From positions 2,852,001 through 2,916,000 of the forward strand of contig NZ_CP022098.1 of assembly GCF_002305875.1 (NCBI RefSeq): a DNA stretch of 64,000 bases, in the 5' to 3' direction. The first letter of the stretch is position 1. Each line of letters starts with the position of its first letter. Below are positions 11,934-42,134 of this stretch, in pieces. The notes beneath the pieces are model-generated. The model was not told the origin of the DNA. It worked only from the letters and a program-made list of their open reading frames with translations, and ran no database searches. This DNA is from Cystobacter fuscus (GTDB lineage: Bacteria > Myxococcota > Myxococcia > Myxococcales > Myxococcaceae). The translations under genes were made by a program, and so were the position numbers.

Positions 11934-11937
11934 GGCG

Positions 11938-12704: not shown

Positions 12705-13196
12705 ATGCCGGATGCGTCCACGCTCGCCGAATGGGGATTGCCGGGGCTGTTCCTCGTGGCGGTGGTGGCCGGCTCGGTGCTTCCCGCTCCGTCCGAGGCG
12801 GTGCTGGCCGCCCTCATCTATGGAGGAGTGCGCCCGGGGTGGGCCGTGACGGTGGCCACCGCCGGCAACGTGCTCGGCGCGCTCACCGTCTATGCCCTGG
12901 GCCGCTGGGGGGCACGTGGCGAGGGCGGGGGCGTGGTGGGGCGATGGCTCCAGCGCCGGAGCGCCCGGGAGGGGGCCCGCCTGCTCCGGGCCCGCGAGCG
13001 CCTGGCCACCTGGGGAGCGCCCTGGCTCCTGCTCGCCTGGCTGCCCGTCGTGGGAGACGTCTTCGTGCTCGCCGCGGGCCTCGTGGGCGTGCGTCCCGGG
13101 CCCTTCGTCGCCTTCGTTTCACTTGGAAAGGGGCTGCGCTACCTCGGAGTCGCACTCTCTGTCCTCGCGGCGCGTCATACTGGAATTTCACAATGA
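12705..13196 (+). CDS. YqaA/DedA-like membrane protein
   Basis: A 163-residue membrane protein with about four hydrophobic segments. GLFLVAVVAGSVLPAPSEAV and ALIYGGVRPGWAVTVATAGN followed by LGALTVYALGR match the YqaA subfamily of the DedA/SNARE-associated proteins, which are proposed to take part in lipid flipping or proton-coupled membrane homeostasis. A later segment, PWLLLAWLPVVGDVFVLAAGL, carries the conserved P-x-x-G-D. The ATG at 12705 is preferred; a GTG at 12693 would add four residues. Divergent from the lipoprotein gene at 12588, with 116 bases between. Confidence 0.7.
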   Translation: MPDASTLAEWGLPGLFLVAVVAGSVLPAPSEAVLAALIYGGVRPGWAVTVATAGNVLGALTVYALGRWGARGEGGGVVGRWLQRRSAREGARLLRARERLATWGAPWLLLAWLPVVGDVFVLAAGLVGVRPGPFVAFVSLGKGLRYLGVALSVLAARHTGISQ

Positions 13197-13280
13197 GGCT
13201 GCGAGACGGGAGCAGGGACGATGGACTAAAAATGCCCTCGTCCCTCACCGCCCGCGTCTTCAGCGGGCAGGAAGCACGCG

Positions 13281-14915
13281 ATGCCACTGCGCTCCTCCTC
13301 ACCGACGCCCGCACGTGCGGGCCGCTGGTTGCTCTGTTCCCTGCTGTCCGTATCTCTCGCCGCGTGTGGGCAGGGAAGCGTCCCGCGGGCGAAGGAGGCA
13401 CACGAGCTGTCCTCCCAGCGCGACGTGTTGGGAGAGGCGCGGATCCGGTTGATGGCCGCCAACATCACGAGCGGCAACAACCAGAGCTATGACCCGGGTC
13501 ACGGCATCCGCATCTTCCAGGGCACGAAGCCCGACGTGGTGATGATCCAGGAGTTCAAGTACGGCACCAACTCCGATGCCGACATCCGCTCCTTCGTCGA
13601 CACCGCCTTCGGCTCGAACTTCCACTACTACCGGGAGGCGCAGTCGGGAGGCATTCCCAATGGCGTCATCAGCCGCTATCCCATCCTCGCCGCGGGCGAG
13701 TGGGAGGACACGAGGGCACCCGACCGGGACTTCGCGTGGGCACGCATCGACATCCCCGGGCCGAAGGATCTCTGGGTGGTGAGCGTGCACCTGCTCACCG
13801 CGGACAGCGGTACGCGCAACACGGAGGCGAACCAGCTCGTCGGCTACATCCAGCAGAACGTGCCCGCGGGGGACTTCCTCGCCATCGCCGGTGACTACAA
13901 CACCGACAACCGGAGCGAGTCGTGCTTCTCCACCTTCTCCGCCGTGGTGTCGACGAGTGGCCCCCACCCGGTGGCCCAGGACAACAAGGAGGGCACCAAT
14001 GCCAGCCGCGCCAAGCCGTATGACCACGTGCTGGTGAGCAACAACCTGCGTGCCTACCAGACGGCCACCGTCATCGGCGCCAGCTCCTTCAGCGCGGGTC
14101 TCGTCGTGGACACGCGCGTCTACTCGCCCATCGAGGAGATCGCTCCCGCGCAGAGCGGCGACAGCGACTCCAGCAACATGCAGCACATGGCCGTCATCAA
14201 GGACTTCCTCGTGCCGTCGGATGACCCCACGACCCCGATTCCCACGGGCCGCGTGACGGTGGTGGTTCCCAACGGAGGCGAGAGCTGGAGCGCGGGCAGC
14301 ACCCGCTCCATCGCCTGGACGACGAGCGAGAGCACCCACGTGAAGCTCGAGTACACGACGGATGGGAGCACCTGGAACGTCATCGCCGACAGCATCCCCG
14401 CCGCCGACGGGGGCTACACGTGGCAGGTGCCGGCGTCGGCGACCACGAAGGCACGCGTGCGCGTGAGTGATGCCTCCGAGGCGGCCGTCACCGACACGAG
14501 CGACGCCGACTTCGCGATCACCAGTGCTCCGCCCCAGGACCCGCGCGCCACCATCACCCAGGAGACCGAGGCCAACAACTCCGCGGCGACCGCCAGTGGC
14601 CGGGTGGGGGCGGACAAGAACGTGAGTGGCGCCCTGTCCACCAGCTCGGACGTGGACTGGTTCGCCTTCAACGTGACCACGGCGGGCAGCGTCAAGGTGA
14701 AGCTGAGCATGTCCGGCGCGCAGGACCTGGACTGGTACGTGTACTCCGCGTCGGATCTGCTCTTCTCCGCGGCTTCCAGCGCCACCATGAGCAATCCCGA
14801 AGTGGGGACCTTCTCCGCCAACGCCCCGGGCATCTACTACGTGAAGGTGGTGGGCTACGCGGGCGCCACGGGGGCCTACACGCTCAACGTGAGCGGCGCG
14901 GGCGTGCAGCCGTAG
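13281..14915 (+). CDS. Secreted endonuclease/exonuclease/phosphatase-fold lipoprotein with PPC domain
   Basis: A 544-residue protein with a lipobox-type signal (SLAAC). Residues about 50-310 are an endonuclease/exonuclease/phosphatase domain: MIQEFKYG carries the metal-binding Glu, FLAIAGDYNTDN the Asp/Asn pair, and MQHMAVIKDF the terminal His region. A Ser/Thr-rich beta-sandwich follows (VVVPNGGESWSAGSTRSIAWTT), like domains in other surface proteins, and then a pre-peptidase C-terminal domain (residues about 430-540). Such an architecture suggests an extracellular nuclease, phosphodiesterase or sphingomyelinase-like enzyme used on released prey material. The ATG at 13281 has AGGAAG upstream. 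The substrate cannot be told apart from the sequence. Confidence 0.8.
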   Translation: MPLRSSSPTPARAGRWLLCSLLSVSLAACGQGSVPRAKEAHELSSQRDVLGEARIRLMAANITSGNNQSYDPGHGIRIFQGTKPDVVMIQEFKYGTNSDADIRSFVDTAFGSNFHYYREAQSGGIPNGVISRYPILAAGEWEDTRAPDRDFAWARIDIPGPKDLWVVSVHLLTADSGTRNTEANQLVGYIQQNVPAGDFLAIAGDYNTDNRSESCFSTFSAVVSTSGPHPVAQDNKEGTNASRAKPYDHVLVSNNLRAYQTATVIGASSFSAGLVVDTRVYSPIEEIAPAQSGDSDSSNMQHMAVIKDFLVPSDDPTTPIPTGRVTVVVPNGGESWSAGSTRSIAWTTSESTHVKLEYTTDGSTWNVIADSIPAADGGYTWQVPASATTKARVRVSDASEAAVTDTSDADFAITSAPPQDPRATITQETEANNSAATASGRVGADKNVSGALSTSSDVDWFAFNVTTAGSVKVKLSMSGAQDLDWYVYSASDLLFSAASSATMSNPEVGTFSANAPGIYYVKVVGYAGATGAYTLNVSGAGVQP

Positions 14916-27564: not shown

Positions 27565-28896
27565 TCAGGAGCGGTGCCGTTCGGCGACGCGGTAGAGCTG
27601 GGTGAGAGAGAAGTCCAGCAGTGATTGGCACGAGCGCATGTAGCGCGAGGCCCGGACGAAGGGCAGCCAGACGCGCCTGCCCACGAGCACCTGGGTTTCC
27701 TCGAGCTTCCGGCGCGGAATCCATTGGCCGCCCAGGTGGCGCACGAGCACTTCGCCCAGGTAGGCGCCAATGGCGGGCACCGCGTGCGCGTCGATGTGTT
27801 CCCGCTCGAAGACCCTCGGAAATTCTTCCTGCCAGAAGTGGAAGTCCACGTCCGTGAGGGACTCGGGGGAGGTGTCGAAGACGGAGGGCACCTTCGAGTG
27901 GAGCAGGGCCACGAGGTGTTCGGCGAGGTCGCCGTAATGCGCGCGAGCACCCACCGGGTCGTCCACGTCCGTGGGCAGGGCGGAGCTAGCGGGGAGCCAC
28001 TCGTCGGGCTCGGGTGGTTGGTACGCGTTGAATTCGGCGATCTTCCGCTGGCGCTCGTGAAAGGCGACGCTGTCCACCACGTGAGAAAGGAGCGGGGCCA
28101 CGTCCGGGTGAAAGCGGGGTTCCACGGGGGCGAGTGTGGCGCTGCGCTCGCGCAGGGTGCGCAGCACCGTGTCGAAGTCCAGGTCCGGCCGGAGGTGGAC
28201 ATGCGCGCGGGCCTGGGCCTCACGAGCCTCGTCACTGGCGAAGTGCGCGGCGGTAGGCCAGAGCACCAGGAGGACGGAGCCATTGGGTAACTCCTCCACC
28301 CGGTGCGCCGGGGTGGAGAGCATGCGCTCGCGACCGACAGCTTCCACCAGCTTCGGACCGAAGACATTGAGCCAGGACACCTCGTAGATTTTGTCGAACC
28401 CATCTCGTATGGATGTCTGCATCTCGCGGCCGAAGCGGGGCTCGCCCGCCAGTTCCGCGTCATCCTCGCTGTGGGCCGCGGCGTGGGTGACCGGGTAGTG
28501 AGAGACCCAACTGCGTACCATCTCCACGAATTGGCGACAGCGCTCCGCCTCCGCGAAAAAGGAGAGCGGCCTCACCTTGAGCCGGATGTCCAATTCGGGG
28601 GAACGCGGAGGGAACCAGAGCCAGAGCCGCATGTCCAACGCGGGCCACTCGGTCCGGTAGAGTCCGAGGGCCGTGCTGTTCCCATCGCGCCGCTCCTCCA
28701 ATGCTTTCCAGAAGGAAGGGCGGGAATATCTGCGTTGTCGCTTGCCGTTGACGACGTCCGGCATCCACTCGCCCGCGTATGCCTCGAGTGCCTGGAGGAA
28801 GGGCTCCAGATTACGTTCCAGTGTCACCCGCGAGTCGGTAGCCCCTTTGAAGGTGAGCCGAAGGCCGTCCTCACCCCTCATCTCCAGTACCTTCAT
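27565..28896 (-). CDS. Cognate immunity candidate of Sit-like locus 2, copy B
   Basis: A 443-residue soluble protein. The start overlaps the toxin stop in ATGA (28893-28896), as for copy A. The N-terminal part (residues 1-160; SFFAEAERCRQFVEMVRSW) differs strongly from copy A. From MQTSIRDGFDKIYEVSWLNVFGP onward the two are nearly identical to the C-terminus. The C-terminal half contains WLPASSALP..., DFHFWQEEFPRVFE and HAVPAIGAYLGEVLVRHLGG, a region that reads as a second domain. The variable N-terminal half probably carries toxin recognition. I cannot assign it to a named immunity family with confidence; the role follows from its position behind a lipoprotein toxin. Confidence 0.7.
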   Translation of the reverse strand: MKVLEMRGEDGLRLTFKGATDSRVTLERNLEPFLQALEAYAGEWMPDVVNGKRQRRYSRPSFWKALEERRDGNSTALGLYRTEWPALDMRLWLWFPPRSPELDIRLKVRPLSFFAEAERCRQFVEMVRSWVSHYPVTHAAAHSEDDAELAGEPRFGREMQTSIRDGFDKIYEVSWLNVFGPKLVEAVGRERMLSTPAHRVEELPNGSVLLVLWPTAAHFASDEAREAQARAHVHLRPDLDFDTVLRTLRERSATLAPVEPRFHPDVAPLLSHVVDSVAFHERQRKIAEFNAYQPPEPDEWLPASSALPTDVDDPVGARAHYGDLAEHLVALLHSKVPSVFDTSPESLTDVDFHFWQEEFPRVFEREHIDAHAVPAIGAYLGEVLVRHLGGQWIPRRKLEETQVLVGRRVWLPFVRASRYMRSCQSLLDFSLTQLYRVAERHRS

Positions 28897-30833
28897 TGGA
28901 ACAGCACCTCCACACTTGGAACCTTCTCGTTGACCATGTTCACGGCTGCATCCAGGTCACCCACCTTCTTGGGCTTGAGGTTGCCACCCTCATAGATGAG
29001 ACGGACTCTCGAAACTCGCACCTCGCCGCTTCCCGTGAGAAGGGACTGGAGAGAGGGTCGGCGGATGTTCAGCACTTCACCGTAATTCCGCAGGGCTTCT
29101 CTCGCGTCTTCGAGCATCTGTGCTTCCAGTGCCTCGTATTTCAGCGCCGAGAGGTTACGGCTCTTGACACTCCAGGTCTCCACGCGAGGTGGTCGTCCGG
29201 CGAGTTCGCCCGTTTCGATGATGAGTATATCCGCGAAGCGCAGGCCGGGACCTGGCTTCATCACGCCCACATTCGTTTCGAGCCGGGGCTGGTCGAAATC
29301 CCCGAGGAATCGGCGCTGTGCCCGAGGCCGTTCCGCATCGGCGCGCAGCAGTTTCAACAAAGCTCGTTCGAAAGCCAGCCCCCGGTTGAACCACCCCCGC
29401 ATGGACTCGTAGGGCTCCCAGCGCAGCGGCCCTTTGGTTGCCGTGTCCTGCTTGGTTTCCCCGAGGCGCTTCTCGTAATAGGCGACGTACTCGGGCCAGC
29501 GCGGGTTGCCCTCGGCGCCGGGAGGCGGAGCTTCCACGGAGGGACGTTGCTTCTGCAGCACCGTGACGTCCGTGGGCAGACGCGGGCCCGTGGCCTCCAG
29601 CTCCACCAGCGACAGCCGGGCTTCCAGTACCTCGCGGGTGAGGCCCACCCCCTCGTCCACCAGCGAGGCCAGGCTCTCGGGCGTGCTCCCGGTTCTCCTC
29701 GTTGCAGAGCCCGTGGCCTCGGCCCTGGCCTTGGACAGCACCGCCTGGGCCCTGGCCACGTTGCCTCGGGCCTCGCGCAGCGCCAGCGCGGCGTCCACTC
29801 CTCCCACGGCGACGAAGCGCCCCGCCTCGCGGCTGGCTTGAATGTCCCGGGCCAGCTCCCGCAGCCCGTCCACCCCCAGCCGTGCATTCCACTGCCGCAC
29901 CACGTCCTGGAGGGCGGGCAGGCGCGGCTCGGACACGGCACGCAGGCCCTTGCCCCCGGCGTACAGCGCGCCCACCAGCAGGGCGGGTGCCAATTCGCGA
30001 GTGGCCTGCTCGTACTGGCCCTGGGACAGAGAGGCGAGGCCCTGGCCGGTGCCAACGCCCAGGTAATAGAAGCCCAGGGGCACGCCGAAGGTGAGCGAGT
30101 CGAAGCTGCCCAGCACCACGCGGCCCGGGGCGAAGTGCTGCCAGGCCAGGGCGAGCTCCACCTCGTGCAGGGCCTGGCGGTAGGGGGGAGGCAACTGCTC
30201 GCGCCGGGCGGACATTTCCAGGTAGCGCAGGCCGTCAATGGCCAGGCTGGTGGCGAGGGCGTCCCGAGCGGCGCGGCCCAGGCCGCGTAGCACGTCACCG
30301 GCCCGCTCGCCGCGCTCGGGGAAGGAGGAGAGGGGGAAGCCGCGCCGCTTCAACTCCTCGCGCACGGTGGGCATGAGCGCCAAGGTCTGGCCCAACAGCT
30401 TGTCGCGGGCCAACAGGTGCAACAGCGCGTCCACCTCGTCGTCGTGTGCCGAGTGCAGCACGTAGAGGGCGAACACCTCGGCATAGGCGAGGCCATAGCG
30501 CTCGGTGACGGAGAGGAGGAAGGAGGCGCGCTTGCGCTGGAGAATGGCGGCGGCGTCCTCGCGTACGGGCCCCAGGGAGCCCAGGCGCACGGCGCTCCAG
30601 TCATCCAGGGACTCCAGCAGCCGGGGCATGTCCACGCGCTGCTGCAGGGCGACGTACTCGGCGGGTGAGGTGCAGGAGAAGAAGGGGGCGAGCCGTGGCT
30701 CCACCTCGCCGGAGGACGGGGCCGCTCCGCCACACGCGTGCGCGCACCCCCTGGCGAGCGGGGCGCTGGTGGCACACCCGGAGAGCAGCAGGAGCCCCGC
30801 CGTGAGCAGGAGTGCCAGGCCCACACGTATCAT
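28893..30833 (-). CDS. SitA-like lipoprotein toxin (locus 2, copy B)
   Basis: A 646-residue protein with signal peptide and lipobox LSGC (Cys20). Residues 20-450 are a large helical delivery body, almost identical to copy A: FFSCTSPAEYVALQQRVDMP, a hydrophobic PALLVGALYAGGKGL segment near 290 and a Pro-rich linker near 430. The C-terminal 170 residues look like a REase-fold nuclease: LRFADILIIE (Asp, Glu), ETWSVKSRNLS (Lys) and VSRVRLIYEGG. The layout matches SitA-type toxins exchanged by TraA/TraB. I chose the ATG at 30833; the GTG at 30836 immediately before it is also possible. AAAGGGA lies upstream, twelve bases after the stop of immunity copy A. Nuclease action is inferred. Confidence 0.75.
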   Translation of the reverse strand: MIRVGLALLLTAGLLLLSGCATSAPLARGCAHACGGAAPSSGEVEPRLAPFFSCTSPAEYVALQQRVDMPRLLESLDDWSAVRLGSLGPVREDAAAILQRKRASFLLSVTERYGLAYAEVFALYVLHSAHDDEVDALLHLLARDKLLGQTLALMPTVREELKRRGFPLSSFPERGERAGDVLRGLGRAARDALATSLAIDGLRYLEMSARREQLPPPYRQALHEVELALAWQHFAPGRVVLGSFDSLTFGVPLGFYYLGVGTGQGLASLSQGQYEQATRELAPALLVGALYAGGKGLRAVSEPRLPALQDVVRQWNARLGVDGLRELARDIQASREAGRFVAVGGVDAALALREARGNVARAQAVLSKARAEATGSATRRTGSTPESLASLVDEGVGLTREVLEARLSLVELEATGPRLPTDVTVLQKQRPSVEAPPPGAEGNPRWPEYVAYYEKRLGETKQDTATKGPLRWEPYESMRGWFNRGLAFERALLKLLRADAERPRAQRRFLGDFDQPRLETNVGVMKPGPGLRFADILIIETGELAGRPPRVETWSVKSRNLSALKYEALEAQMLEDAREALRNYGEVLNIRRPSLQSLLTGSGEVRVSRVRLIYEGGNLKPKKVGDLDAAVNMVNEKVPSVEVLFQ

Positions 30834-30845
30834 CACGAGTCCCTT

Positions 30846-32186
30846 TCAGGAGCGGTGCCGTTCGGCGACGCGGTAGAGCTGGGTGAGGGAGAAGTCCAAC
30901 AGCGACTGGCACGAACGCATATAGCGCCCGGCCCGGACGAAGGGCAGCCAGACGCGTTTGCCCACGAGCACCTGGGCCTCCTCGAGCTTCTGGCGCGGAA
31001 TCCACTGTCCGCCCAGGTGGCGCACGAGCACCTCGCCCAGGTAGGCGCCAATGGCGGGCACCGCGTGCGCGTCGATGTGCTCCCGCTCGAAGACTCGCGG
31101 AAACTCCTCCTGCCAGAAGTGGAAGTCCACGTCCGTGAGGGACTCGGGGGAGGCGTCGAAGACGGAGGGCACCTTCGAGTGGAGCAGGGCCACGAGGTGT
31201 TCGGCGAGGTCGCCGTAATGCGCGCGAGCACGCACCGGGTCGCCTATATCCGGAGGCAGGGCGGATTCAGAGGGGAGCCACTCGTCGGGCTCGGGCGGTT
31301 GGTACGTGTTGAATTCGGCGATCTTCCGCTGGCGCTCGTGAAGGGCGACGCTGTCCACCACGCGAGAGAGGATCGGGGCCACATCCGGGTGGAAGCGGGG
31401 CTCCACGGGGGCGAGCGCGGCGCTGCGCTCGCGCAGGGTGCGCAGGAGGGTGTCGAAGTCCAGGTCTGGCCGGAGGTGCGCGTGTGCGCGGGCCTGCGCC
31501 TCACGAGCCTCATCACTGGCGAAGTCCGCGGCGGTGGGCCAGAGCACCAGGAGGACGGAACCGTTGGGAAGTTCCTCCACCCGGTGGGCTGGTGTGGACA
31601 GCATGCGCTTGCGGCCGACAGCTTCCACCAGCTTCGGACCGAACACATTGAGCCAGGACACCTCGTAGATTTTATCGAACCCGTCTCGAATGGAGGTCTG
31701 CATCTCGCGTCCAAAGTTGGGAGCGCTAGACAATTGGTTGTCAGCCAGACCATGAGCCAAGGCATGGGAAATCAGATAGCGCGAGGCCCAGGTTCGTACC
31801 AATTCCACGAGTTGGCGACACCGCTCCTCTTCCGCGAAGAAGGAGAGCGGTTCTACCTTGAGCAAGATGTCCAGTTTGGGAGGGGTTGTTGGAAAGTAGA
31901 GACTGAGCGTCATGCTCAACGCGGGCCAGTTCGTGCGATAGAACCCGATGGTTGTCCCTCTTTCGTGGCGTTGCTCCTCCAGGGCCTTCCAGATGGCGGC
32001 GCGGGCATACTTGCGTCGTCTTTTGCCCTCGATGACGTCCGGCATCCAACCGTCCGCGTACTTCTCGAGCATTTGGAATAGGGGTTCCAATTCGCTCGCT
32101 AGTGCCGCCTGTGTGTCGAAGGCACCGTCGAAGGTGAGCAAGAGGCTGTCCTCCGCCTTCAAGTCTTCAAATTCCAACACCTTCAT
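30846..32186 (-). CDS. Cognate immunity candidate of Sit-like locus 2, copy A
   Basis: A 446-residue paralogue of the protein at 27565-28896. The start at 32186 overlaps the toxin A stop (ATGA, 32183-32186) and gives MKVLEFEDLKAEDS, matching the MKVLEMRGED start of copy B. The frame is open further upstream only as noise through the toxin gene. Residues 1-165 have diverged strongly from copy B; the remainder is almost identical, including EVSWLNVFGPKLVEAVGR and DFHFWQEEFPRVFE. It is followed after twelve bases by toxin copy B, so all four genes may be one transcript. Immunity role inferred from context. Confidence 0.7.
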   Translation of the reverse strand: MKVLEFEDLKAEDSLLLTFDGAFDTQAALASELEPLFQMLEKYADGWMPDVIEGKRRRKYARAAIWKALEEQRHERGTTIGFYRTNWPALSMTLSLYFPTTPPKLDILLKVEPLSFFAEEERCRQLVELVRTWASRYLISHALAHGLADNQLSSAPNFGREMQTSIRDGFDKIYEVSWLNVFGPKLVEAVGRKRMLSTPAHRVEELPNGSVLLVLWPTAADFASDEAREAQARAHAHLRPDLDFDTLLRTLRERSAALAPVEPRFHPDVAPILSRVVDSVALHERQRKIAEFNTYQPPEPDEWLPSESALPPDIGDPVRARAHYGDLAEHLVALLHSKVPSVFDASPESLTDVDFHFWQEEFPRVFEREHIDAHAVPAIGAYLGEVLVRHLGGQWIPRQKLEEAQVLVGKRVWLPFVRAGRYMRSCQSLLDFSLTQLYRVAERHRS

Positions 32187-34129
32187 TGGAACAGTACCTC
32201 TACTCCTGGAAGTGCGTTCTTGGTTGCGCTCACGGCCCTGTTCACCTCGTTGGTGTCCTTGGGCAGGAGTTGTCCGCCCTCGTAGACGAGGCGAACCTTT
32301 GAGACAGGCACCTTGCTTCCCTCGCGGAGAAGAAGCTGAAGGGAGTCGCGGCGGATGTCCAGAGTCTCTCCGTATTTCTTTAGCGCTTCCCTCGCGTCTT
32401 CCATGATCTGAGCTTCGAGAGCCATACCTTTCAGCCCCGAGAGATTGCGGCTCTTGAAGCTCAACGTCTCGACGCGAGGTGGCCGACCGGCGAGTTCGCC
32501 CGTTTCGATGACGAGCACATCCGCGAAGCGCAGACCAGTACCGGGTTTCATCACGCCGACGTACCTCTCGAGCCGAGGCTGGTCGAAGTCCCCGAGGAAA
32601 CGGCGCTGGGCCCGGGGCAGTTTCGCGTCTGCTTGCAGTAGCTCCACCATGAGGCGCTCGAAAGCCAGCCCCCGGGTGAACCATCCCCGCATGGACTCGT
32701 AGGGCTCCCAGCGCAGCGGCCCTTTGGTTGCCGTGCCCTGCCGTAATTCTCCGAGACGCCTCTCGTAGTAGGCGACGTACTCGGGCCAGCGCGGGCTACC
32801 CTCGGCGCCGGGCGGCGGAGCTTCCACGGAGGGACGTTGCTGCTCCAGCACCGCGACGTCCCTGGGCAGGCGTGGGCCCGTGGCCTCCAACTCCACCAGC
32901 GCCAGCCGGGCCTCCAGTACCTCGCGGGTGAGGCCTGCCCCCTCGTCCACCAGTGAGGCCAGGGTTTCGGTGCGCCCCGTGCCAACGGCTCTCCTCGCCG
33001 AGGAGCCCGTGGCCTCGGGTCTGGCCTTGGACATCACCGCCTGGGCTCTGGCCACGTCGCCTCGGGCCTCGCGCAGCGCCAGCGCGGCATCCATGCCTCC
33101 CACGGCCACGAAGCGGCCCGCCTCGCGGCTGGCTTGAATGTCCCGGGCCAGCGCACGCAGCCCGTCCACCCCCAGCCGTGCATTCCACTGCCGCACCACC
33201 TCCTGGAGGGCTGGCGGGCGTGATTCGGGCAGGGCGCGCAGGCCCTTGCCTCCGGCGTACAGCGCTCCCACCAGGAGCGCGGGGGCCAGCTCGCGCGTGG
33301 CCTGCTCGTACTGGCCTTGGGACAAGGAGGAGAGGCCCTGGGTAGTGCCGACGCCCAGGTAATAGAAGCCCAGGGGCACGCCGAAGGTGAGCGAGTCGAA
33401 GCTGCCCAGCACCACGCGGCCCGGGGCGAAGTGCTGCCAGGCCAGGGCGAGCTCCACCTCGTGCAGGGCCTGGCGGTAGGGGGGAGGCAACTGCTCGCGC
33501 CGGGCGCTCATCTCCAGGTAACGCTGGCCTTCAATGGCCTGGCTGGTGGCGAGGGCGTCCCGAGCGGCGCGGCCCAGGCCCCGCAGCACGTCGCCGGCCC
33601 GCTCGCCGCGCTCGGGGTAGGCAGACAGGGGAAGGCCGCGGCGCTTCAACTCCTCGCGCACGGTGGGCATGAGCCCCAAGGTCTGGCCCAACAGCTTGTC
33701 GCGGGCCAACAGGCGCAACAGTGCGTCCAACTCGTCGTCGTGCGTCGAGTGCAGCACGTAGAGGGCGAACACCTCGGCATAGGCGAGGCCATAGCGCTCG
33801 GTGACGGAGAGGAGGAAGGAGGCGCGCTTGCGCTGGAGAATGGCGGCGGCGTCCTCGCGTACGGGCCCCAGGGAGCCCAGGCGCACGGCGCTCCAGTCAT
33901 CCAGAGCCTCCAGCAGCCGGGGCATGTCCACGCGCTGCTGCAGGGCGACGTACTCGGCGGGTGAGGTGCAGGAGAAGAAGGGGGCGAGCCGTTGCTCCAC
34001 CTCGCCGGAGGACGGGGCCGCTCCGCCACACGCGTGCGCGCACTCCCTGGAGAGCGGAGCGCTGGTGGCACACCCGGAGAGCAGCAGGAGCCCCGCCGTG
34101 AGCAGGAGTGCCAGGCCCACGCGGGTCAT
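32183..34129 (-). CDS. SitA-like lipoprotein toxin (locus 2, copy A)
   Basis: A 648-residue protein with the same layout as copy B: signal peptide, lipobox LSGC, conserved helical body, linker with RPSVEAPPPGAEG, and C-terminal nuclease-like part (LRFADVLVIE; ETLSFKSRNLS; VSKVRLVYEGG). In copy A the last 100 residues differ in many positions from copy B, while the N-terminal body is nearly identical. The lysine of the putative catalytic core is retained in SFKS, as in SVKS. The start at 34129 is placed by homology with copy B; an ATG at 34162 would add eleven basic residues and still give a good signal peptide. This is the first gene of the locus, 75 bases upstream of the DUF4956 stop. Confidence 0.75.
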   Translation of the reverse strand: MTRVGLALLLTAGLLLLSGCATSAPLSRECAHACGGAAPSSGEVEQRLAPFFSCTSPAEYVALQQRVDMPRLLEALDDWSAVRLGSLGPVREDAAAILQRKRASFLLSVTERYGLAYAEVFALYVLHSTHDDELDALLRLLARDKLLGQTLGLMPTVREELKRRGLPLSAYPERGERAGDVLRGLGRAARDALATSQAIEGQRYLEMSARREQLPPPYRQALHEVELALAWQHFAPGRVVLGSFDSLTFGVPLGFYYLGVGTTQGLSSLSQGQYEQATRELAPALLVGALYAGGKGLRALPESRPPALQEVVRQWNARLGVDGLRALARDIQASREAGRFVAVGGMDAALALREARGDVARAQAVMSKARPEATGSSARRAVGTGRTETLASLVDEGAGLTREVLEARLALVELEATGPRLPRDVAVLEQQRPSVEAPPPGAEGSPRWPEYVAYYERRLGELRQGTATKGPLRWEPYESMRGWFTRGLAFERLMVELLQADAKLPRAQRRFLGDFDQPRLERYVGVMKPGTGLRFADVLVIETGELAGRPPRVETLSFKSRNLSGLKGMALEAQIMEDAREALKKYGETLDIRRDSLQLLLREGSKVPVSKVRLVYEGGQLLPKDTNEVNRAVSATKNALPGVEVLFQ

Positions 34130-34204
34130 GACCAACGGGCGGGCGGACAAGGGGCGTGTCATGCGGCCCCGGACATAGCACCGTCCGGTGGGCCGCTGGC
34201 ACCC

Positions 34205-34873
34205 TCACGGCTCGTCGATGGAGGCACTCCTCACGCCGGGAAGCGTGCCGCGCAGTCCCTCGAGCAACTGGAAACCATCCATCCGCTCCGGGAGGGCGAG
34301 CTCGAAGACGGCGGTGCCTTCCCGGGACGCCGGCACCTGTTCGATCGCGAGCATGCGTGCGTCGGGATGCATGGCTCGCAGCGGGGGCAGGGCGGCTCCC
34401 AGGTCCTCCACGCTCAGCGACAGCTTGACCCACTGGGGGCGGCGCTGTGCCGTCATATCCAGCGCGACGAGGACGGCGCCGAGAAATCCCGTGGCGCAGA
34501 TGGCCACCCGGAAGGCGCCGAGGCCACAGGACATGCCCACGCCGATGAGCACGAACATGACGGCCGCGTCGCGCGTGTCCTTGATGCCCGAGCGGAAGCG
34601 GATGAATCCGCCGAGCCCCACCAGTCCGAAGGCGCGCGACATGCTGTCCCCAATCACCGTCGTCATCACCGCGCCGGCCACGGCGATGAGCAACTGGGTA
34701 TGCGCGGTCTCCTGGGGCATCACGGGGGCGGACGGCATCCACCGGCGCCAGGGCCGGTAGGCCAGGAGCGCGCCGAGCACCAGGGCGAGGCTGAAGCGCA
34801 GCAGGGCCTCGGGGATGAACAGCTCGTGGGGATCCGACACGTCCGTGCGCGTCAGCATCTCAAGCGGTGGCAT
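34205..34873 (-). CDS. DUF4956-like polytopic membrane protein
   Basis: A 222-residue membrane protein with about five hydrophobic segments: residues 24-42, 63-82, 108-125 and 127-140 are clear. The motif FGLVGLGGFIRFRSGIKDTRDAAVMFVL is the diagnostic loop of DUF4956/MgtC-type proteins (G-x-x-x-I-R-F-R followed by D-x-x-D-A). The last 75 residues form a soluble domain. It overlaps the thymidylate-kinase-like gene by 14 bases (34860-34873), as last gene of the five-gene operon. DUF4956 proteins often neighbour VTC and CotH genes; their function is unknown. Confidence 0.8.
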   Translation of the reverse strand: MPPLEMLTRTDVSDPHELFIPEALLRFSLALVLGALLAYRPWRRWMPSAPVMPQETAHTQLLIAVAGAVMTTVIGDSMSRAFGLVGLGGFIRFRSGIKDTRDAAVMFVLIGVGMSCGLGAFRVAICATGFLGAVLVALDMTAQRRPQWVKLSLSVEDLGAALPPLRAMHPDARMLAIEQVPASREGTAVFELALPERMDGFQLLEGLRGTLPGVRSASIDEP

Positions 34874-36545
34874 GAAGCCGCTCCTGTCCAGGGTGTGCCG
34901 CCACCCGCGCCGCCTGCCGCAACAGGGCGAAATCCCGGGGATGGTCCGTGAGCAGCCGGGAGATGAGCTCCTGTCCCCGAGCGCTCGAGGCCAGGGGTCC
35001 CATGCTCTTCACCGTGGCCGCGGGCCACGTGTCCGCCAGCGCCTGGCGCAGCCGCCACGCCGTGGCTCCGTCCATCCCCTCGAAGGACTCCAGGGCCTCC
35101 TCGCAGGAGACGCCAAAGGACTCGCGCAGGGCCCAGGCCCGAGGGTTGTTCAACCCTCGCAGGGACTCGAGGACGAGCCGCGAGGCCCGCCCCGCGTGTT
35201 GTTCGCGCAAGGCCCACGCCCGCTCACTGTCGAGTCCCTCCAGGGTGCGCAGCACGGCATCCGGCGCCACCTCCCACGTCCGCTCCCGCCAGTCCCAGGC
35301 GGGTGTGTCATCCACGCCCCGGATGGATCGGCAGGCGATGCGCGCCACCTTCTCCTGACCGAGCGCCGCCTGACCTCCCCGCTGGGACAGCCAGCGCTCG
35401 CGCAGCACCCAGGCCCGCGCGTCGCCGAGCCCCGTGAGCGAGGTGACCACGGGCTCCGGAAACCTCCCGTGGAGGCGCTCGCGCATCGCCCACGCCTGTT
35501 CCGAGCCGAGCCCATCCAGGGAGGCGGCGACGGCCTCGGGCGCCCGCTGTTCCCACCGCTCCCGGAGCGCCCACGCCTGGGAGGACTCCGCGGCCGGCTC
35601 CTTGAGCGAGCCGAGCACCTGCATGGGCGCGGCGTCCTCCAGGCGGGCCCGCAGGCTCCACGCGCTCGCGTCGGTGAGGCCGGAGAGGCCATGGGCGATG
35701 AGCTCGGGGCAGCGCGCGGCCAGCCGCTCACGGCGCGTGTCGATGTCCGCGCCTTCCAGTCCCGAGAGGAACCAGGCGGCGAGCCCCGGCTCTTCCTCCA
35801 TCCACCGGTCCACCCGTTCGAGGAATCGCGCCCGGGCCTCGTCGGCGGAGCGGGGCGGGGTCGGAGCACGAGGAGAGGGGAACGGGGTGCCCGGCTCGCC
35901 CCCGCGCACCATCCGCAGCACCTCCTGGGTGAGCTGGGTGACGAGCGCCTCGAGCGTCACGTCCGTGTTCTCGATGAGGGTCCATTGCTCGGGCGACTCC
36001 GCGGCGAGTGCCCGGTAGCCGGCGCGCAGCCGGGTCTGCATGCCCGCTCCGGCGAGCCCCTTGCGTGAGGAGGGAGCCCCCGTGTCGGGCGCGAGCAGCT
36101 TCGAGATGCGGCGGCGGGCGCGCGCGATGGCCGGGTCCACGTCGATGAGGAAGACGCGCTCGGGCCGCAGTCCCCGGGTGCAGGCGTCCACGACGGGGCG
36201 CACCGCGTGCTCGGGCAGACCCCGTCCCCACCGGGCGAGCACCTCGGCGGTGTAGAGGAAGCGGTCGGCGATGACGACCTCGTACTCGGCGAGCGCCGGG
36301 CGCGTCACCTCCTCCAGCAACTGGGTCTCGCGGGCGGAGTAGAGGAGCAGCTCCGCCATGGGGGTGAGCGCGAGGTGGAGGGGATTCTTGGTGAAGAGCC
36401 TCAGTCCCTCGGACACGGGCGAGGCCAGCTTGCCGTCCTCGCGCACGTGCCGCACGCGCAGCCCCGCCTGGCGCAGCTCCCGTGCCACGCGGTTGGACAG
36501 CGTCGTCTTGCCGGAACCATCGATTCCCTCGAATACGATCAGCAT
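34860..36545 (-). CDS. Thymidylate-kinase-like P-loop protein fused to an AWxLRE repeat region
   Basis: A 561-residue fusion. Residues 1-210 resemble dTMP kinase: the P-loop is GIDGSGKTT at 7-15, the base-binding DRF is near 94, and RPERVFLIDVDPAIARARRR leads into the lid. The usual REPGGT of Tmk is replaced by REDGKLASP. Residues about 230-540 carry eight repeats with the motif A-W-x-L-R at 26-29-residue spacing (one is 38), for example QAWALRERWEQRAPEAV and RAWALREQHAGRA. These would form a helical repeat solenoid with Trp and Arg at fixed places. The start overlaps the porin stop by one base (TGATG). A housekeeping Tmk normally has about 210 residues, so this is a specialised P-loop kinase; PPK2 polyphosphate kinases have the same fold, which could matter here. 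Confidence 0.78.
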   Translation of the reverse strand: MLIVFEGIDGSGKTTLSNRVARELRQAGLRVRHVREDGKLASPVSEGLRLFTKNPLHLALTPMAELLLYSARETQLLEEVTRPALAEYEVVIADRFLYTAEVLARWGRGLPEHAVRPVVDACTRGLRPERVFLIDVDPAIARARRRISKLLAPDTGAPSSRKGLAGAGMQTRLRAGYRALAAESPEQWTLIENTDVTLEALVTQLTQEVLRMVRGGEPGTPFPSPRAPTPPRSADEARARFLERVDRWMEEEPGLAAWFLSGLEGADIDTRRERLAARCPELIAHGLSGLTDASAWSLRARLEDAAPMQVLGSLKEPAAESSQAWALRERWEQRAPEAVAASLDGLGSEQAWAMRERLHGRFPEPVVTSLTGLGDARAWVLRERWLSQRGGQAALGQEKVARIACRSIRGVDDTPAWDWRERTWEVAPDAVLRTLEGLDSERAWALREQHAGRASRLVLESLRGLNNPRAWALRESFGVSCEEALESFEGMDGATAWRLRQALADTWPAATVKSMGPLASSARGQELISRLLTDHPRDFALLRQAARVAAHPGQERLHATA

Positions 36546-37675
36546 CAGAACACCACCTCCAACTGCAACAGCAGGGCCTTGCGGGTGACGAGGTCATCGT
36601 CCAGGACACTCAGCAGGGCCGGGACGGCGGCCTGGGCCACGCGGCGCTCGACCTGCGCCTGCAACCGCCAGCGCCGCCACTGTCCGACGTTGACGCCTCC
36701 CACCGCTTCTCCCAGCAGATCGTTCTGCGTCTTCAGGTCCGGCTCGAGCACCGAGAGCATGGCGAAGGGCTCCGCGTACCAGGCGCCCTTGGACACGCCG
36801 CCGAAGCGCACCGCCGTCAGGGCGCGCCCGGTGAGCATCCGTCCCTGGGCGCCCGACAGCACGGACGAGCGTCCCACCAGCACCTCGGCCCAGGAGCGCC
36901 ACTCGCCCCAGCCGAACGGCAGCGCGTGCTTCAAGTCGAGTCCGGCCGTCCAGTTGGCCGCCACGCCGCTCGGGCTCGTGCCCAGCAGCTCCGCCCGCGC
37001 GGAGCCGCCCAGCTCGAGCGACTCCAACACCTGCCACGTCGCCCGGGCCATGGGCACGAGGCCGAGTCCCTTCTGGAGGCTGGCCCGCTCGGGGTCGTTC
37101 TGGAACACGCCCGCGCGTACCCGCACCACCCGCTCGCAGCCCGTGCACTGCCATTCCAGCTGCGCACCGACGCGGCGGCCGGTGAGGTTGAGCGTGTCCT
37201 CGGACAACACCTCGCGCAGCAGGCCCCGGCGCACCACGGGCAGCCGCGCGGTGGACTCCAGCTCCACGAGTGACAGGGGCACCTTGAACTGGCCCACCCG
37301 GACGGCGAGCCCGTCGACGAGCTTCAGCGAGGCGTAGGCGTCCTTGAGTCCGTCCGTGACGTCGAACTCCACCACGGCCTTCAGGCGCTTCTTCCATTGA
37401 TAGGTGAATTCCAGACGCGCGGAGGAAATGGACAGGATGCCCTTGAGCACCTTGTCCTCCTTGGCGCTGAGGGCCTCGCGGGCGCGCAGCCGGCCACCGA
37501 TCTCCACCGAGCCGAAGGCGGAGGGCAGCACGAGGCTCGCCTCGGTGTTGCCGCTGGGGGGCGGGCTGGCGTCGGACGGGCCCTGGTGTTGATCCGAATC
37601 CTGGGCCTGGGCGGAGGACACCAGGAGCAGCGTGGCGAGGACGAGCCACCGCGCGGGAGGAAAGGCCGGCTTCAT
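36545..37675 (-). CDS. OprO/OprP-like porin
   Basis: A 376-residue outer-membrane beta-barrel candidate with a cleavable signal peptide (residues 1-24, ending AQAQ) and a terminal Phe. GSVEIGGRLRAR, DAYASLKLVDGLAVRVGQFKVPLSL and LTGRRVGAQLEW match the phosphate-selective porin O/P family, in which the GQFKxP block is typical. The N-terminal 45 residues form a Pro/Ser/Gln linker rather than the coiled coil seen in some members. The start overlaps the VTC stop (ATGA) and its stop overlaps the next start. OprO binds polyphosphate or pyrophosphate in Pseudomonas, which fits a neighbour that makes polyphosphate; whether this porin does so is inferred. Confidence 0.75.
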   Translation of the reverse strand: MKPAFPPARWLVLATLLLVSSAQAQDSDQHQGPSDASPPPSGNTEASLVLPSAFGSVEIGGRLRAREALSAKEDKVLKGILSISSARLEFTYQWKKRLKAVVEFDVTDGLKDAYASLKLVDGLAVRVGQFKVPLSLVELESTARLPVVRRGLLREVLSEDTLNLTGRRVGAQLEWQCTGCERVVRVRAGVFQNDPERASLQKGLGLVPMARATWQVLESLELGGSARAELLGTSPSGVAANWTAGLDLKHALPFGWGEWRSWAEVLVGRSSVLSGAQGRMLTGRALTAVRFGGVSKGAWYAEPFAMLSVLEPDLKTQNDLLGEAVGGVNVGQWRRWRLQAQVERRVAQAAVPALLSVLDDDLVTRKALLLQLEVVF

Positions 37676-38439
37676 GGCAGGTCCATCTCCGCGTCCAGGC
37701 GCCAGCGCATGCCTTGTTCGAACTTCGAGTCCTGGGTCTCGAAAACCTCCAGGTTGCGCAGACAGTCGCGCAGCCACGGGGGGCTGTTCGCCCGCCACTT
37801 CACCTCGAGCAGGATGGCGGGGGCGTGACGGATGAGCCGCTCGGGCATGGCGGGCGCTCCCGGTCCGGTGGGCCGGGGCGGAAGGGCGAACACGAGATCC
37901 TCGTCCACGGTGAAGCGCACGCTGGCGTCGGCGTTCGCGTGGGTGCCGCGCCGGTACCAGGCCGTCACCCAGGGCCTGACGGGGCCATGGGGACTGTCGC
38001 GCAGCAACCGGGCCGCCGCGCTGTCCTCGTCGAGGGATCCACCCGCCAACAGGGCCACCGCTTCGCCCGGGGACACGGGGATGCGGACCTTGGTGCGCCG
38101 CTGACCCGTGTTGGTCTTCATCTCCAGGTAGCGCGTGCCGGTGAGCACGGGGGGCTCGGACAGGGAGGCACTTCCCGCGTACTCCCGGAGCCGCAGCCGC
38201 TGCGTATGTCCATGGCGGCACGAGTCCAGGAAGCGCAGATCCTCGGTGTCGAAGTAGGTCGTCCGCGTGAAGGCGAATGGCAGGCGGGCGTCGTACACAC
38301 AGGGTTGGGTCCAGGGGCGGGTGGCCCGCATGAAGTCCTCCAGCGCCGTGCGGGAGGGCAGGAAGCGCCGCTCATGGTCCTGCTGCGACGCGAGGGGGGG
38401 GGAGGGGAGGGAGGGACTCATGCGGGCCACCGCGCTCAT
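37672..38439 (-). CDS. VTC-domain polyphosphate polymerase-like protein
   Basis: A 255-residue soluble protein of the VTC family (PF09359), whose eukaryotic member Vtc4 makes polyphosphate from ATP within a tunnel-shaped beta barrel lined by Lys and Arg. Typical blocks are HERRFLPS (basic residues at the first strand), TTYFDTEDLRFLD, RLRLREY, YLEMKTN, RRTKVRIPV and AILLEVKWR. These supply the conserved basic and acidic positions. No SPX domain or membrane segment is present, so this is a stand-alone catalytic module. It overlaps both neighbours by ATGA. Catalytic activity is expected but not shown. Confidence 0.88.
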   Translation of the reverse strand: MSAVARMSPSLPSPPLASQQDHERRFLPSRTALEDFMRATRPWTQPCVYDARLPFAFTRTTYFDTEDLRFLDSCRHGHTQRLRLREYAGSASLSEPPVLTGTRYLEMKTNTGQRRTKVRIPVSPGEAVALLAGGSLDEDSAAARLLRDSPHGPVRPWVTAWYRRGTHANADASVRFTVDEDLVFALPPRPTGPGAPAMPERLIRHAPAILLEVKWRANSPPWLRDCLRNLEVFETQDSKFEQGMRWRLDAEMDLP

Positions 38440-40031
38440 GGAGTGGCTCCCAGGGCTGCCTTGACCTCACCCTGACGCCGGGCGGCGAAGCCCAGCAGCC
38501 CGTTGGTGCCGCTGAACGCGTCGATGAACGCCTGGGGCGAGCTCAGGAAGGTGTAGCCCGGCTGCTCGGCGTTCTCGCCCACCACCCAGGGAGTGATGAG
38601 CTCATGCGCCGCGCGCAGGCGGGCCTGGAACGGCTCCGGTGCCATCACCCCGTTCGCGGCCTCCAGCGCGTACCTCGTGTAGTCGGCCTTGTAGGTGGGG
38701 TCGTCGAGCAGGTAGCGGATGAGTGGCCAGGTGGCGTCGGTGGTGTCGTACGTCAGGGACGTGGACCGGCCCATGCCCTCGCCCATGGAGCGATCATGGT
38801 CCCAGGTAATCCAATGCAGCCGGCCGTTCTCCTGGGAGTGGGCGTAGAGATAGTAGTTGTGGGACATGGCGCCGTAGGCGTCCCAGTTCTGGACCACGGT
38901 GTTGACCGCGAGCCACTTGAGGAAGCCCTGCACGTTCAGCTTCTGCTCGAGGCGCGCGCGCCAGGCAGCCGCGTCGCTCCGGTCGGAGTGGAGGGCGTTG
39001 ATGGCTTCCTGCACGGGAGTCCAGCCAATCTCCTCGTTGGCCTGGATGTCGAAGGACGCCTCGTCGAAGGTGCCCCAGCGGGCGCCGGTGCCATCGGCCT
39101 CGTAGAGCGCGCCCTTGTGTTCCCCGAAGTAGCCGTCGAGCAGCGAGTTGTTGTCGATGTCCTCGTCGAGCGTATAGAGGCCCCAGTACTGGGTGCCCTC
39201 GCCATGGTCCACGTACAGGGCGACGAAGGCGGTGCGGGGCGCGGGCACACCGGACTCGCGGAAGATGTCCGAGGCGATCTTGTCGCGCATGAGCGACGCG
39301 TCGGCCGCGCCATTGCCCAGCGACAGCGTCTTGAAGCCGTAGAAGCGCTGATCCTGCGTCTCGGGATGCTCATCCTCGAACTTGTCGAAGTTCAGACGCA
39401 GCGGCAGCTTGGACACACCGCTGCGCCAGGTCTGCGCCAGCGAGGAATTGCCCTTCATGCGCACGCCGATGTAGGGCCAGGTCTTGCCCTCGAACTTGAA
39501 GGTCGCGGGCACGTAGACGGGCGTGTTGGGGATGATGTCCCCGCCGCCGCCCCCACCCGGAGCGCCACCGCCACCGCCACCGAACTGTGGCCTGCAGATG
39601 AGTTGCGCGCCGCCCGGACCCTGCTCACAGGTACTGGTGAAGGTGTTTCCCTGGAAGGTGGCGGTGCAGGCGTCTCCCGCGGCCTTGTCCACGCACGGCT
39701 CGGTGAGCTCCACGGGAATCTGCCCGCCTCCCGGGCCTCCACCGCCTCCACCGGGGCCGCCTCCACCGCCTCCCGGGCCCATGCCACCGCCCGCGCCGAA
39801 CTCGCCCGCCATGGCGGTCATGTCGTCCTGCATCTTCTGCCAGTCCGCGGGGGCGATGATGAGGTCGAACCTCTTCACCTGCTCCTGGGGAAAGACGACG
39901 GCATAGGCGGGAGCGGCGTTCTTGCCGTGGGACTCCTCGCTCCATCCCTCGATGGGCTCGGTGCCTCCACACGCGGAGGTGAAGGTGAAGACGACGGTGG
40001 CGAATGCGCCAAGGCGCGGACTTCGGTGCAT
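38436..40031 (-). CDS. CotH kinase family lipoprotein
   Basis: A 531-residue protein with a lipoprotein signal (TSAC, Cys20). Residues 40-70 start the CotH fold (FDLIIAPADWQKM). An insertion of about 110 residues follows, with two Gly-rich stretches (GPGGGGGGPGG type) and four Cys. The kinase region contains RMKGNSSLAQ, LPLRLNFDKFE and a late HWITWDHDRSMGEG with the D-H-D that matches the metal-binding D-x-D of CotH kinases. CotH in Bacillus spores phosphorylates coat proteins; here the target is unknown but lies in the envelope. The ATG at 40031 has GAGAGG upstream. It is the first gene of the five-gene operon. Confidence 0.85.
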   Translation of the reverse strand: MHRSPRLGAFATVVFTFTSACGGTEPIEGWSEESHGKNAAPAYAVVFPQEQVKRFDLIIAPADWQKMQDDMTAMAGEFGAGGGMGPGGGGGGPGGGGGGPGGGQIPVELTEPCVDKAAGDACTATFQGNTFTSTCEQGPGGAQLICRPQFGGGGGGAPGGGGGGDIIPNTPVYVPATFKFEGKTWPYIGVRMKGNSSLAQTWRSGVSKLPLRLNFDKFEDEHPETQDQRFYGFKTLSLGNGAADASLMRDKIASDIFRESGVPAPRTAFVALYVDHGEGTQYWGLYTLDEDIDNNSLLDGYFGEHKGALYEADGTGARWGTFDEASFDIQANEEIGWTPVQEAINALHSDRSDAAAWRARLEQKLNVQGFLKWLAVNTVVQNWDAYGAMSHNYYLYAHSQENGRLHWITWDHDRSMGEGMGRSTSLTYDTTDATWPLIRYLLDDPTYKADYTRYALEAANGVMAPEPFQARLRAAHELITPWVVGENAEQPGYTFLSSPQAFIDAFSGTNGLLGFAARRQGEVKAALGATP

Positions 40032-40149
40032 GAGGGTCCTCTCGGAAGGAAACGGGGGTTCCTTCGCCAGGGCGGGCGGTGGGCCTGCCCTGGCGTCACG
40101 AGTGGCCACCCTGGAGCGTGCCAGTGACCCCTTCTTTACGCGTTTGTGA

Positions 40150-40250: not shown

Positions 40251-41849
40251 TCATGGCGCCATGGGGGTGACGGTGTTGGACGCCCAGAGCGGGCCGCCCG
40301 CCGAGTCGTAGATCACGAGGTTTCCATCGTTCTGCACATAGAACATGGCGCCCCCCTGGCCAGCGGTGCGGGTTTGCCACAGGATCTGCCCGGCTGAATC
40401 GTATTCAACGAGGTTTCCATCCTGTTGGAACAACACTTCGGCCGCCGTGCTTCCTACCGTGCCCGTGGAGAAGAGGGGCGTGGAGCCATGGTACAAAACC
40501 AGATTGCCATCGTTCTGCAACGTCAGTGAGAAACGGCCATCGCAAGACACCAGGCTCTGTCCTCTCGACAAGCCCTGGCCCGGAGACAGGGCTCCGCATT
40601 CAGTGGGCGGCTGCACCGGGGGCAGAGGCGTGGAGGGCGGCGCGGTGAAGAGGCCGAGGTCGACTGCATTGGCGATGGCCGCCAGGCCAGCGACGTTCGG
40701 GTGCAGGTGGTCTCCGGTGTCGAATGCCGGCAAGAACCAGGTGGGCTTCGCCGGGTCATGCGTGGCCGTGTCCTGGTCGATCACCGCGTCACAGCCGCTC
40801 GCCGCGCTGCGCACGAAGCTGTTGAACTGCTGGCGGACCTGCTCCTGGCTGGACGTCCATCCCGTGGTGCCTTCATACGGCGTCAGCGTCGAGCAGAAGA
40901 ACTCGATCTGGTTCTGATGGGCCTTGGCGATGAGGCGCTTGAGCACGTCGATGAGCTGCGTGGCCGTCGGCTGCGGCGACGCCATCAGATCGTTGATGGG
41001 ATCGTCGGAATAGATGACCCAACGGACGCCCGGTTGATCCAGCACGTCGGTGTCGAACCGGTGCTCGGCGCTCAACCCGGCGCCATCGGCCAGACTGCGG
41101 TTGCCGCTGATGCCTTGATTGAGAACGCCGACTTGAATGCCTTGTTGCAGCAGGCGTTTCGCCAGGACGTTGGGCCAGCGGTCATTGCCATTGAAATTGC
41201 TGCCCACGCCATCGGTGATCGACGCGCCCAGGGTGACCACGCTGCCCAACGCCTGGGGGTTCTGCACGTCCAGGTTGGTGAGGAGGTAGTAGCTGCCGGT
41301 GGTACTCACGTTGCTCAGGTTCACGCTGCTTCCCACATCGCCAGGGGCGATGTAGTTGGTCTGCTGGCCCGTCTGGTGCGTCGTGGCCGGGCCCGTCGCA
41401 GCGGGCAGGTACATGCTGATGGCCACATCTCCAAACGCTGGCACCTGGAACTGGATCGGATCGCTGGTCAGCCTGGCCCCGACCGGGATCGTGATTTGCG
41501 TGCTCCCACCGAAGGTGATGGCGCGATCGGTCCCGGACACGATCGACGAACCATTGCCTCGTAGCGCGATGCGCACGTTGGAGATCCGCAACGGCTGCGA
41601 GCCGAACTGGTTGGACACTTCCACGCGCACGACCGACCCGCCAATGCTGGTGCGCACGATCTGGCGCAGTGTCTGCGCATTGAAGGTGTCACCGCTTGCC
41701 TGTGGAGACACGGCCCAGGTTCCCACCCACCCGTCGATCACCGCCGCTTTTCCGTGTCCAACGGCCTGGCCGCTGTGTACGGCACAGGCCATCAATAGCG
41801 TGGTCTTGGCGAATTGGCGGAACCAAGATGGAAAATGATTCTTGCTCAT
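40251..41849 (-). CDS. Secreted SGNH/GDSL esterase with mannose-lectin C-terminus
   Basis: A 532-residue exported protein (signal to about residue 31). Residues 40-200 form a beta-sandwich starting with VGTWAVSPQ. The SGNH hydrolase core is at 205-415: the nucleophile block reads LGASITDG (normally GDS), the block-III region reads DDPIND (normally GIND), and the last block is DHLHPN with the Asp/His pair. A C-terminal B-type lectin domain (about 420-530) carries three QxDGNLVxY sites: LQNDGNLVLY, FQQDGNLVEY and VQNDGNLVIY. Such lectins bind mannose or a related glycan, so the enzyme is probably targeted to a surface. GGGAGAA lies before the ATG at 41849. Activity on acetyl or lipid esters is inferred. 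Confidence 0.82.
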   Translation of the reverse strand: MSKNHFPSWFRQFAKTTLLMACAVHSGQAVGHGKAAVIDGWVGTWAVSPQASGDTFNAQTLRQIVRTSIGGSVVRVEVSNQFGSQPLRISNVRIALRGNGSSIVSGTDRAITFGGSTQITIPVGARLTSDPIQFQVPAFGDVAISMYLPAATGPATTHQTGQQTNYIAPGDVGSSVNLSNVSTTGSYYLLTNLDVQNPQALGSVVTLGASITDGVGSNFNGNDRWPNVLAKRLLQQGIQVGVLNQGISGNRSLADGAGLSAEHRFDTDVLDQPGVRWVIYSDDPINDLMASPQPTATQLIDVLKRLIAKAHQNQIEFFCSTLTPYEGTTGWTSSQEQVRQQFNSFVRSAASGCDAVIDQDTATHDPAKPTWFLPAFDTGDHLHPNVAGLAAIANAVDLGLFTAPPSTPLPPVQPPTECGALSPGQGLSRGQSLVSCDGRFSLTLQNDGNLVLYHGSTPLFSTGTVGSTAAEVLFQQDGNLVEYDSAGQILWQTRTAGQGGAMFYVQNDGNLVIYDSAGGPLWASNTVTPMAP

Positions 41850-42134
41850 TCTGTTCTCCCATTCATCAGTGGCTGAATAAAGGGTCAGCCGAGGCGGCCT
41901 CCTGCCCCTGTACCTCATGATGAGTAATGAGAACAGAACCAACTCCTTCCTCTCATCGGCTGAGAATTCCTCCAGGCTCGGCCTCATCCATGGGAATGAG
42001 AAACAGAGTGTTTGTAATGGTACGGTGAAGTGGCTCAGGGAGGGAGAGGAATGTGATGGTGTTGGAATCTGATTGACTTCCCGGTTCATCTATTGGGGAA
42101 TTCAAGTAAAACCAGTTGAATCGGGAGTCGCGGA
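41850..42134. other. Divergent intergenic region of 285 bases, less GC-rich
   Basis: Between the SGNH esterase and the RCC1 gene. It includes a relatively AT-rich stretch at 41850-41950 (ATGAGTAATGAG type) and probably both promoters. I see no RNA gene or clear operator. Confidence 0.35.

Follow-up and report, generated by a model that had tools for sequence, protein, structure and literature searches.

A thymidylate-kinase-like protein with arginine-bearing helical repeats as a probable partner of bacterial VTC-type polyphosphate polymerases

The operon and its surroundings

The window analysed here is a 64,000-nucleotide stretch of the Cystobacter fuscus genome, which is assembled as a single contig of 12.35 Mb. 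Five minus-strand genes follow one another within it in the order CotH, VTC, porin, TmkR and DUF4956, TmkR being the name that we give to the family in which a kinase domain is fused to helical repeats.

38436 to 40109, minus strand: CotH-family kinase (PF08757, E 8.8e-60), with an ATGA overlap with VTC
37672 to 38439, minus strand: VTC-type polyphosphate polymerase, 255 aa (PF09359, E 4.6e-17)
36545 to 37675, minus strand: phosphate-selective porin O/P-like outer membrane protein with a signal peptide (PF07396, E 5.6e-9)
34860 to 36545, minus strand: TmkR, 561 aa, a Tmk-fold kinase followed by Arg-ladder helical repeats
34205 to 34873, minus strand: DUF4956/MgtC-like membrane protein (PF16316, E 2.4e-8)

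Every junction overlaps, by 4 (ATGA), 4 (ATGA), 1 (TGATG) and 14 bases in that order, the bases shared by VTC and the porin gene being the ATGA at 37675-37672. The TmkR frame opens with ATG. An earlier, sequence-only reading of this DNA had pointed to VTC and a porin nearby, and this observation can be extended, as the polyphosphate-polymerase operon to which TmkR belongs is found again and again in two phyla. The conserved residues of the VTC protein comprise R-x-[KR]-E, E-x-K, R164, R175, E212-x-K214 and SKF, and the residues invariant among ten TmkR-linked VTCs include basic tunnel motifs. Because a phmmer search by sequence found no solved VTC structure, conservation was the sole basis for judging the catalytic residues.

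Elsewhere in the window, two similar minus-strand lipoprotein genes (28893-30836 and 32183-34162; 647 and 659 aa, without a Pfam match) have another open reading frame (30846-32684 region) between them; they may be lipoproteins of a polymorphic toxin-like kind, accompanied by partner genes. The minus-strand gene at 40251-42089 encodes a GDSL lipase domain and a C-terminal match to a putidacin L1-like lectin bacteriocin model; this C-terminal part also matches B_lectin, below the cut-off.

The kinase domain and the separate thymidylate kinase

35898 to 36545, minus strand: Tmk-fold kinase domain, residues 1-216 (PF02223 and VIA-align to 5zb0), with the P-loop at residues 6-15, DRF at 94-96 and the LID at 142-168 carrying SRKGLAGAG
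36429 to 36443, minus strand: altered REPGGT loop, RE-D-G-K, residues 35-39

The open reading frame and Tmk-type domain proposed from the letters alone are real, with residues 5-194 matching Pfam Thymidylate_kin (PF02223) at E 1.3e-19 and 71 bits against a cut-off of 27. The NCBIfam dTMP_kinase model TIGR00041 scores 87.1 against its cut-off of 83.25, about 4 bits above it. Structure matches to the domain are headed by dTMP kinases, and VIA-align superposes it on Thermus thermophilus Tmk (5zb0) with a Z of 23.7 and an rmsd of 1.5 over 179 residues, the identity in this structural alignment being about 34%. Together with the intact P-loop and DR motif, these matches would be in keeping with a rival explanation, in which the cell has in TmkR a second dTMP (or dNMP) kinase, divergent and co-transcribed with its neighbours by chance, whose repeats do no more than tether it.

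An alignment of 57 TmkR and 76 canonical Tmk sequences argues against that explanation. TmkR keeps E6-G-I-D-G-S-G-K13, D94-R95 and R144; across 46 TmkR sequences the P-loop GxxGxGK[ST] and DR[YF] are invariant or nearly so, and Lys13, Asp9, Asp94, Arg95 and Arg72 are invariant. The earlier reading had described an intact P-loop and DRF beside an altered REPGGT region, and both descriptions hold: EGIDGSGKTT and DRF are present, while RE-D/G-G-x-L-x-S-P stands where REPGGT would be, without the proline (Pro37) found in 98% of canonical Tmks, Asp, Gly or Lys taking its place. Further replacements affect Arg73 (98% in canonical enzymes; Asp or Glu in TmkR, with Arg72 invariant instead), Thr100 (85%; Ala, Gln, His or Leu), Tyr103 (98%; Leu, His or Thr), Gln104 (100%; Ala, Ser or Gly) and the LID Glu163 (84%, otherwise Asp), which becomes Gly inside a new SRKGLxGxG motif. 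The dTMP-site residues (REPG Pro, Arg73, Ser/Thr100, Tyr103 and Gln104) and the DR[FM]E LID, present at 84-100% in the 76 canonical sequences, are replaced in every TmkR clade. TmkR has newly conserved residues in His33, Tyr98, Trp188 and Asn193, its acceptor pocket differs among clades, and its kinase domains are monophyletic with a support of 1.0. Because several of the replaced positions contact thymine or deoxyribose in Tmk structures, dTMP is an unlikely substrate of TmkR. From the residues that are kept and lost, we infer that the domain is an active phosphotransferase with an acceptor other than dTMP.

The genome also carries a separate Tmk (G000:C1:5264433-5265104) that retains the REP, AADR and AYQ motifs. 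It is matched in 58 of 59 near genomes, mostly at full length, many of them without any TmkR match, and it is the sole Tmk matched in many genomes that lack TmkR. Since this separate enzyme is present even where TmkR is not, TmkR is dispensable as the dTMP kinase of the cell. The search for another tmk gene, which the sequence-only reading had proposed, thus succeeded, and in combination with the changed acceptor-site residues it bears out the suspicion that TmkR is not the housekeeping enzyme. The presence of another Tmk in almost every relative, whether or not it has TmkR, and a VTC linkage that spans two phyla also weigh against a second dTMP kinase, which we consider improbable.

Two observations concern the other Tmk-like genes themselves. 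The P-loop of the housekeeping Tmk reads GAGTTT, the Walker A lysine being replaced by Thr, as it also is in those closer relatives that were checked (in L021-L032); even so, no other gene of the genome matches dTMP kinase better, and in several relatives no other Tmk was matched. A fourth Tmk-like match (G000:C1:9690134-9690661) resembles a deoxynucleoside kinase (VVEGPIGVGKTSL).

PPK2 is related to thymidylate kinases through a P-loop ancestor (PMC8776046), a relationship that makes a polyphosphate-related enzyme with a Tmk fold plausible. The same ancestry and the operon context could be taken to favour TmkR as a PPK2-type polyphosphate:nucleotide phosphotransferase. PPK2 membership was rejected, since PF03976 did not match even at E up to 1 and the hhalign comparison with the regular PPK2 that the genome also encodes was weak and no better than the one obtained for canonical Tmk. 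A PPK2-type activity for TmkR is accordingly improbable, and these comparisons lend no support to the proposal of the sequence-only reading that the kinase could use polyphosphate or transfer phosphate in the polymer pathway.

The repeat domain

34899 to 35840, minus strand: C-terminal helical repeat domain, residues 236-549 (AlphaFold mean pLDDT 96.1)
35046 to 35663, minus strand: eight A-W-x-[L/M/W]-R units, residues 295-500, with repeat arginines Arg299, 328, 355, 382, 420, 447, 474 and 500

The claim of eight A-W-x-L-R units of about 27 residues was confirmed. Motifs begin at residues 295, 324, 351, 378, 416, 443, 470 and 496, at spacings of 29, 27, 27, 38, 27, 27 and 26, and an extra degenerate unit contains Arg272. 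In the C-terminal part, sequence autocorrelation is highest at a lag of 27 (z=8.7, against 1000 shuffles in which no lag exceeded 4.9), and the kinase half displays no periodicity. The repeat units are old, as the arrays are not tandem repeats at the DNA level, TRF having returned a single trivial 9-bp row. The sequence-only reading also knew no named domain for the repeat, and none was found: searches of Pfam (to E 10), PDB sequences, PADLOC and PHROGs yielded no convincing match, no Pfam family scored above its cut-off, the HEAT, armadillo and TPR models of Pfam did not match, and neither did CHAD (PF05235) at E up to 10.

AlphaFold predicts the whole of TmkR with a mean pLDDT of 93.7. Each predicted unit pairs a short helix of roughly 6 residues, by way of a turn, with a helix of 10 residues bearing A-W-x-L-R, and the units stack into a two-helix solenoid that most resembles the Rpn1/Rpn2 ring. 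A Foldseek search of the repeat domain against the PDB gave no significant match (E 0.08 or worse). When the top 1000 Foldseek matches were realigned by VIA-align, Rpn1/Rpn2 chains occupied ranks 1-35 with Z of 12.0-14.8 and an rmsd near 5 over about 300 residues, Z values that helical repeats can attain through a common arrangement; open solenoids trailed with a Z of 10.3 and an rmsd of 20. This ranking hints at a ring of TmkR repeats.

Conservation within the repeat is centred on the arginine. With the eight repeats of 36 sequences pooled, Arg is conserved at 99%, Ala at 85%, Leu at 71% and Trp at 68%, and the most acidic positions reach just 61%. The arginine is therefore conserved beyond the hydrophobic core and has no equally conserved acidic partner. 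Because a salt-bridge partner should be about as conserved as the arginine, ligand binding by this residue is plausible, but it may also act structurally, for example by bonding main-chain oxygens. The domain is not basic overall, the window protein having 45 Arg and Lys against 49 Asp and Glu.

An ordinary HEAT-like protein-binding solenoid, in which the arginine is purely structural, is a serious contender. The two-helix unit of 27 residues and a list of structure matches full of alpha-solenoids are in keeping with it, and HEAT repeats carry a conserved Arg too. We lean somewhat against it, as the TmkR arginine is more conserved than Trp and the core, lacks a comparable acidic partner and occurs in a domain without a HEAT match in Pfam. 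The repeat appears to define a new family of helical repeats, whose Arg ladder is a candidate for binding polyanions.

Linkage to VTC, proposed role and known systems

In a public scan the nearest named full-length relatives belong to Archangium species (about 74% identity), which places this myxobacterium close to Archangium. Of 195 Myxococcota genomes, 75 contained matches to a profile of the repeat domain, at 97 places in all; among 392 Planctomycetota genomes there were 17 such places, in 17 genomes. Intact copies, which represent 57 distinct full-length proteins, are always fused to the kinase; the 195 Myxococcota genomes held no stand-alone repeat protein, all matches lying in TmkR frames except those cut by contig ends. 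The repeat was not found in 347 genomes from the phylum of an Acidobacteria MAG, in 52 from that of a Lambdaproteobacteria MAG or in 18 mixed genomes, each set being searched without a positive control.

Pfam detects VTC within 6 kb of 89 of the 97 myxobacterial places, and the co-occurrence of TmkR and VTC in genomes gives a Fisher p of 8e-26, uncorrected for ancestry. Several of the remaining places have an explanation: that of G102 starts at the edge of a contig, G006 carries a split TmkR whose N-terminus lies beside VTC on another contig, G016 and G138 have VTC on another contig, and G032 has a VTC detected by a local profile. In G066, G137 and G024 (L039, with no VTC nearby) the absence of VTC within 6 kb is without explanation. 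Among planctomycetes VTC lies upstream of TmkR in all 15 loci with enough upstream DNA, where protein identity is 33-37%, and DUF4956 follows downstream in several. Seven sequences went into the VTC profile, and Pfam bears out VTC in the window and L052 as well as DUF4956 in L160 and L170. Not every VTC gene of Myxococcota has a TmkR: 31 of 120 VTC places are without one, so that TmkR is characteristic of only part of the VTC systems.

The same genome holds a TmkR paralogue of 41% identity 0.64 Mb away, in an operon (L036 7551-11791) ordered porin, VTC, TmkR and DUF4956, without CotH. In a tree of full-length proteins the window TmkR groups with the myxobacterial MAG proteins L050 and L051 and apart from the other type. 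The two paralogues are therefore not a recent duplicate, and both lineages look ancient. The L051 locus (2980-13333), from a Myxococcales MAG, is a phosphate-handling neighbourhood, in which VTC, a Na/Pi cotransporter and TmkR are followed by a phosphate-permease-like frame and a PhoU-like DUF47.

These gene neighbourhoods argue for a strong pathway link between TmkR and VTC. Because the pairing is conserved across two phyla, we favour, with moderate confidence, TmkR as a dedicated cytoplasmic partner of bacterial VTC in polyphosphate synthesis, either phosphotransferase or regulator, rather than a maker of dTDP. In Myxococcota it travels with VTC, usually also with DUF4956 and the porin, as an operon of overlapping genes, and in Planctomycetota VTC is its direct neighbour. 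Having retained the Tmk fold, the P-loop lysine and the DR motif and lost the dTMP-recognition set, its kinase would phosphorylate another acceptor. Less certainly, the ladder of one Arg per repeat may bind a polyanion, most likely the polyphosphate made by VTC, and the kinase might then act on the growing chain or its nucleotide by-products, or regulate in response to them, with DUF4956 and the porin providing membrane steps of the same phosphate or polyphosphate traffic. That polyphosphate is held on the ladder beside the kinase is speculative. Points against the partner reading are the perhaps structural role of the arginine, the repeat domain's lack of an overall basic charge, the TIGR00041 score just over the dTMP-kinase threshold and the G024 locus, where VTC is not nearby. 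There is an outside chance that the repeats form a closed ring that binds or threads VTC polyphosphate through one invariant arginine per unit and that the kinase primes or caps the chain or draws phosphate from it for another acceptor.

Another possibility, to which we give some but minor weight, is that TmkR is a regulatory ATPase or sensor that switches VTC, with repeats docking VTC or DUF4956 and no small-molecule acceptor. The constant fusion, the tight operon and the variation of the acceptor pocket among clades would suit such a role, and so would the absence from bacterial VTC, to our knowledge, of the SPX regulator that the yeast enzyme has. The invariance of the five catalytic-site residues across 46 sequences, however, exceeds what binding alone would need.

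As a dedicated partner, TmkR would be a conserved, previously unnamed handle on the priming, regulation or export coupling of bacterial VTC polymerases, which are widespread and hardly studied in the open-access literature searched. The open-access papers searched contained no link of a thymidylate-kinase-like protein to VTC and no report of a Tmk-repeat protein. Many 'dTMP kinase' annotations in myxobacteria and planctomycetes are probably wrong. Should the ring reading be true, TmkR would represent a new polyphosphate-handling fold and, beside PPK2, a second entry of P-loop kinases into polyphosphate metabolism.

TmkR shares its fold, P-loop and DR motif with bacterial Tmk (PF02223/TIGR00041) but differs in its dTMP-recognition residues and LID, its repeat fusion and its own monophyletic branch. 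CotH, polyphosphate polymerase and DUF4956 occur together as Pel accessory genes of Gram-positive streptococci and clostridia in the portion of PMC7112168 consulted; that portion likewise has all three in one operon but names no Tmk-repeat protein or porin O/P, whereas here TmkR lies between VTC and DUF4956. PPK2 resembles TmkR as a Tmk-related P-loop kinase with a link to polyphosphate, and TmkR differs from it in sequence, in its LID and in carrying a repeat domain. The polyphosphate-binding CHAD domain (PF05235) offers an analogy as a helical domain beside a tunnel-fold phosphate polymer enzyme, although CHAD comprises two four-helix bundles with conserved His and TmkR a repeat solenoid with an Arg ladder. 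The best structural alignment of the repeat domain is to the PC-repeat ring of Rpn1/Rpn2 in the 26S proteasome (Z 14.8, rmsd 4.9, 306 of 316 residues, 9% identity), from which TmkR is set apart by 27-residue units, shorter than PC repeats, and by the lack of any sequence similarity.
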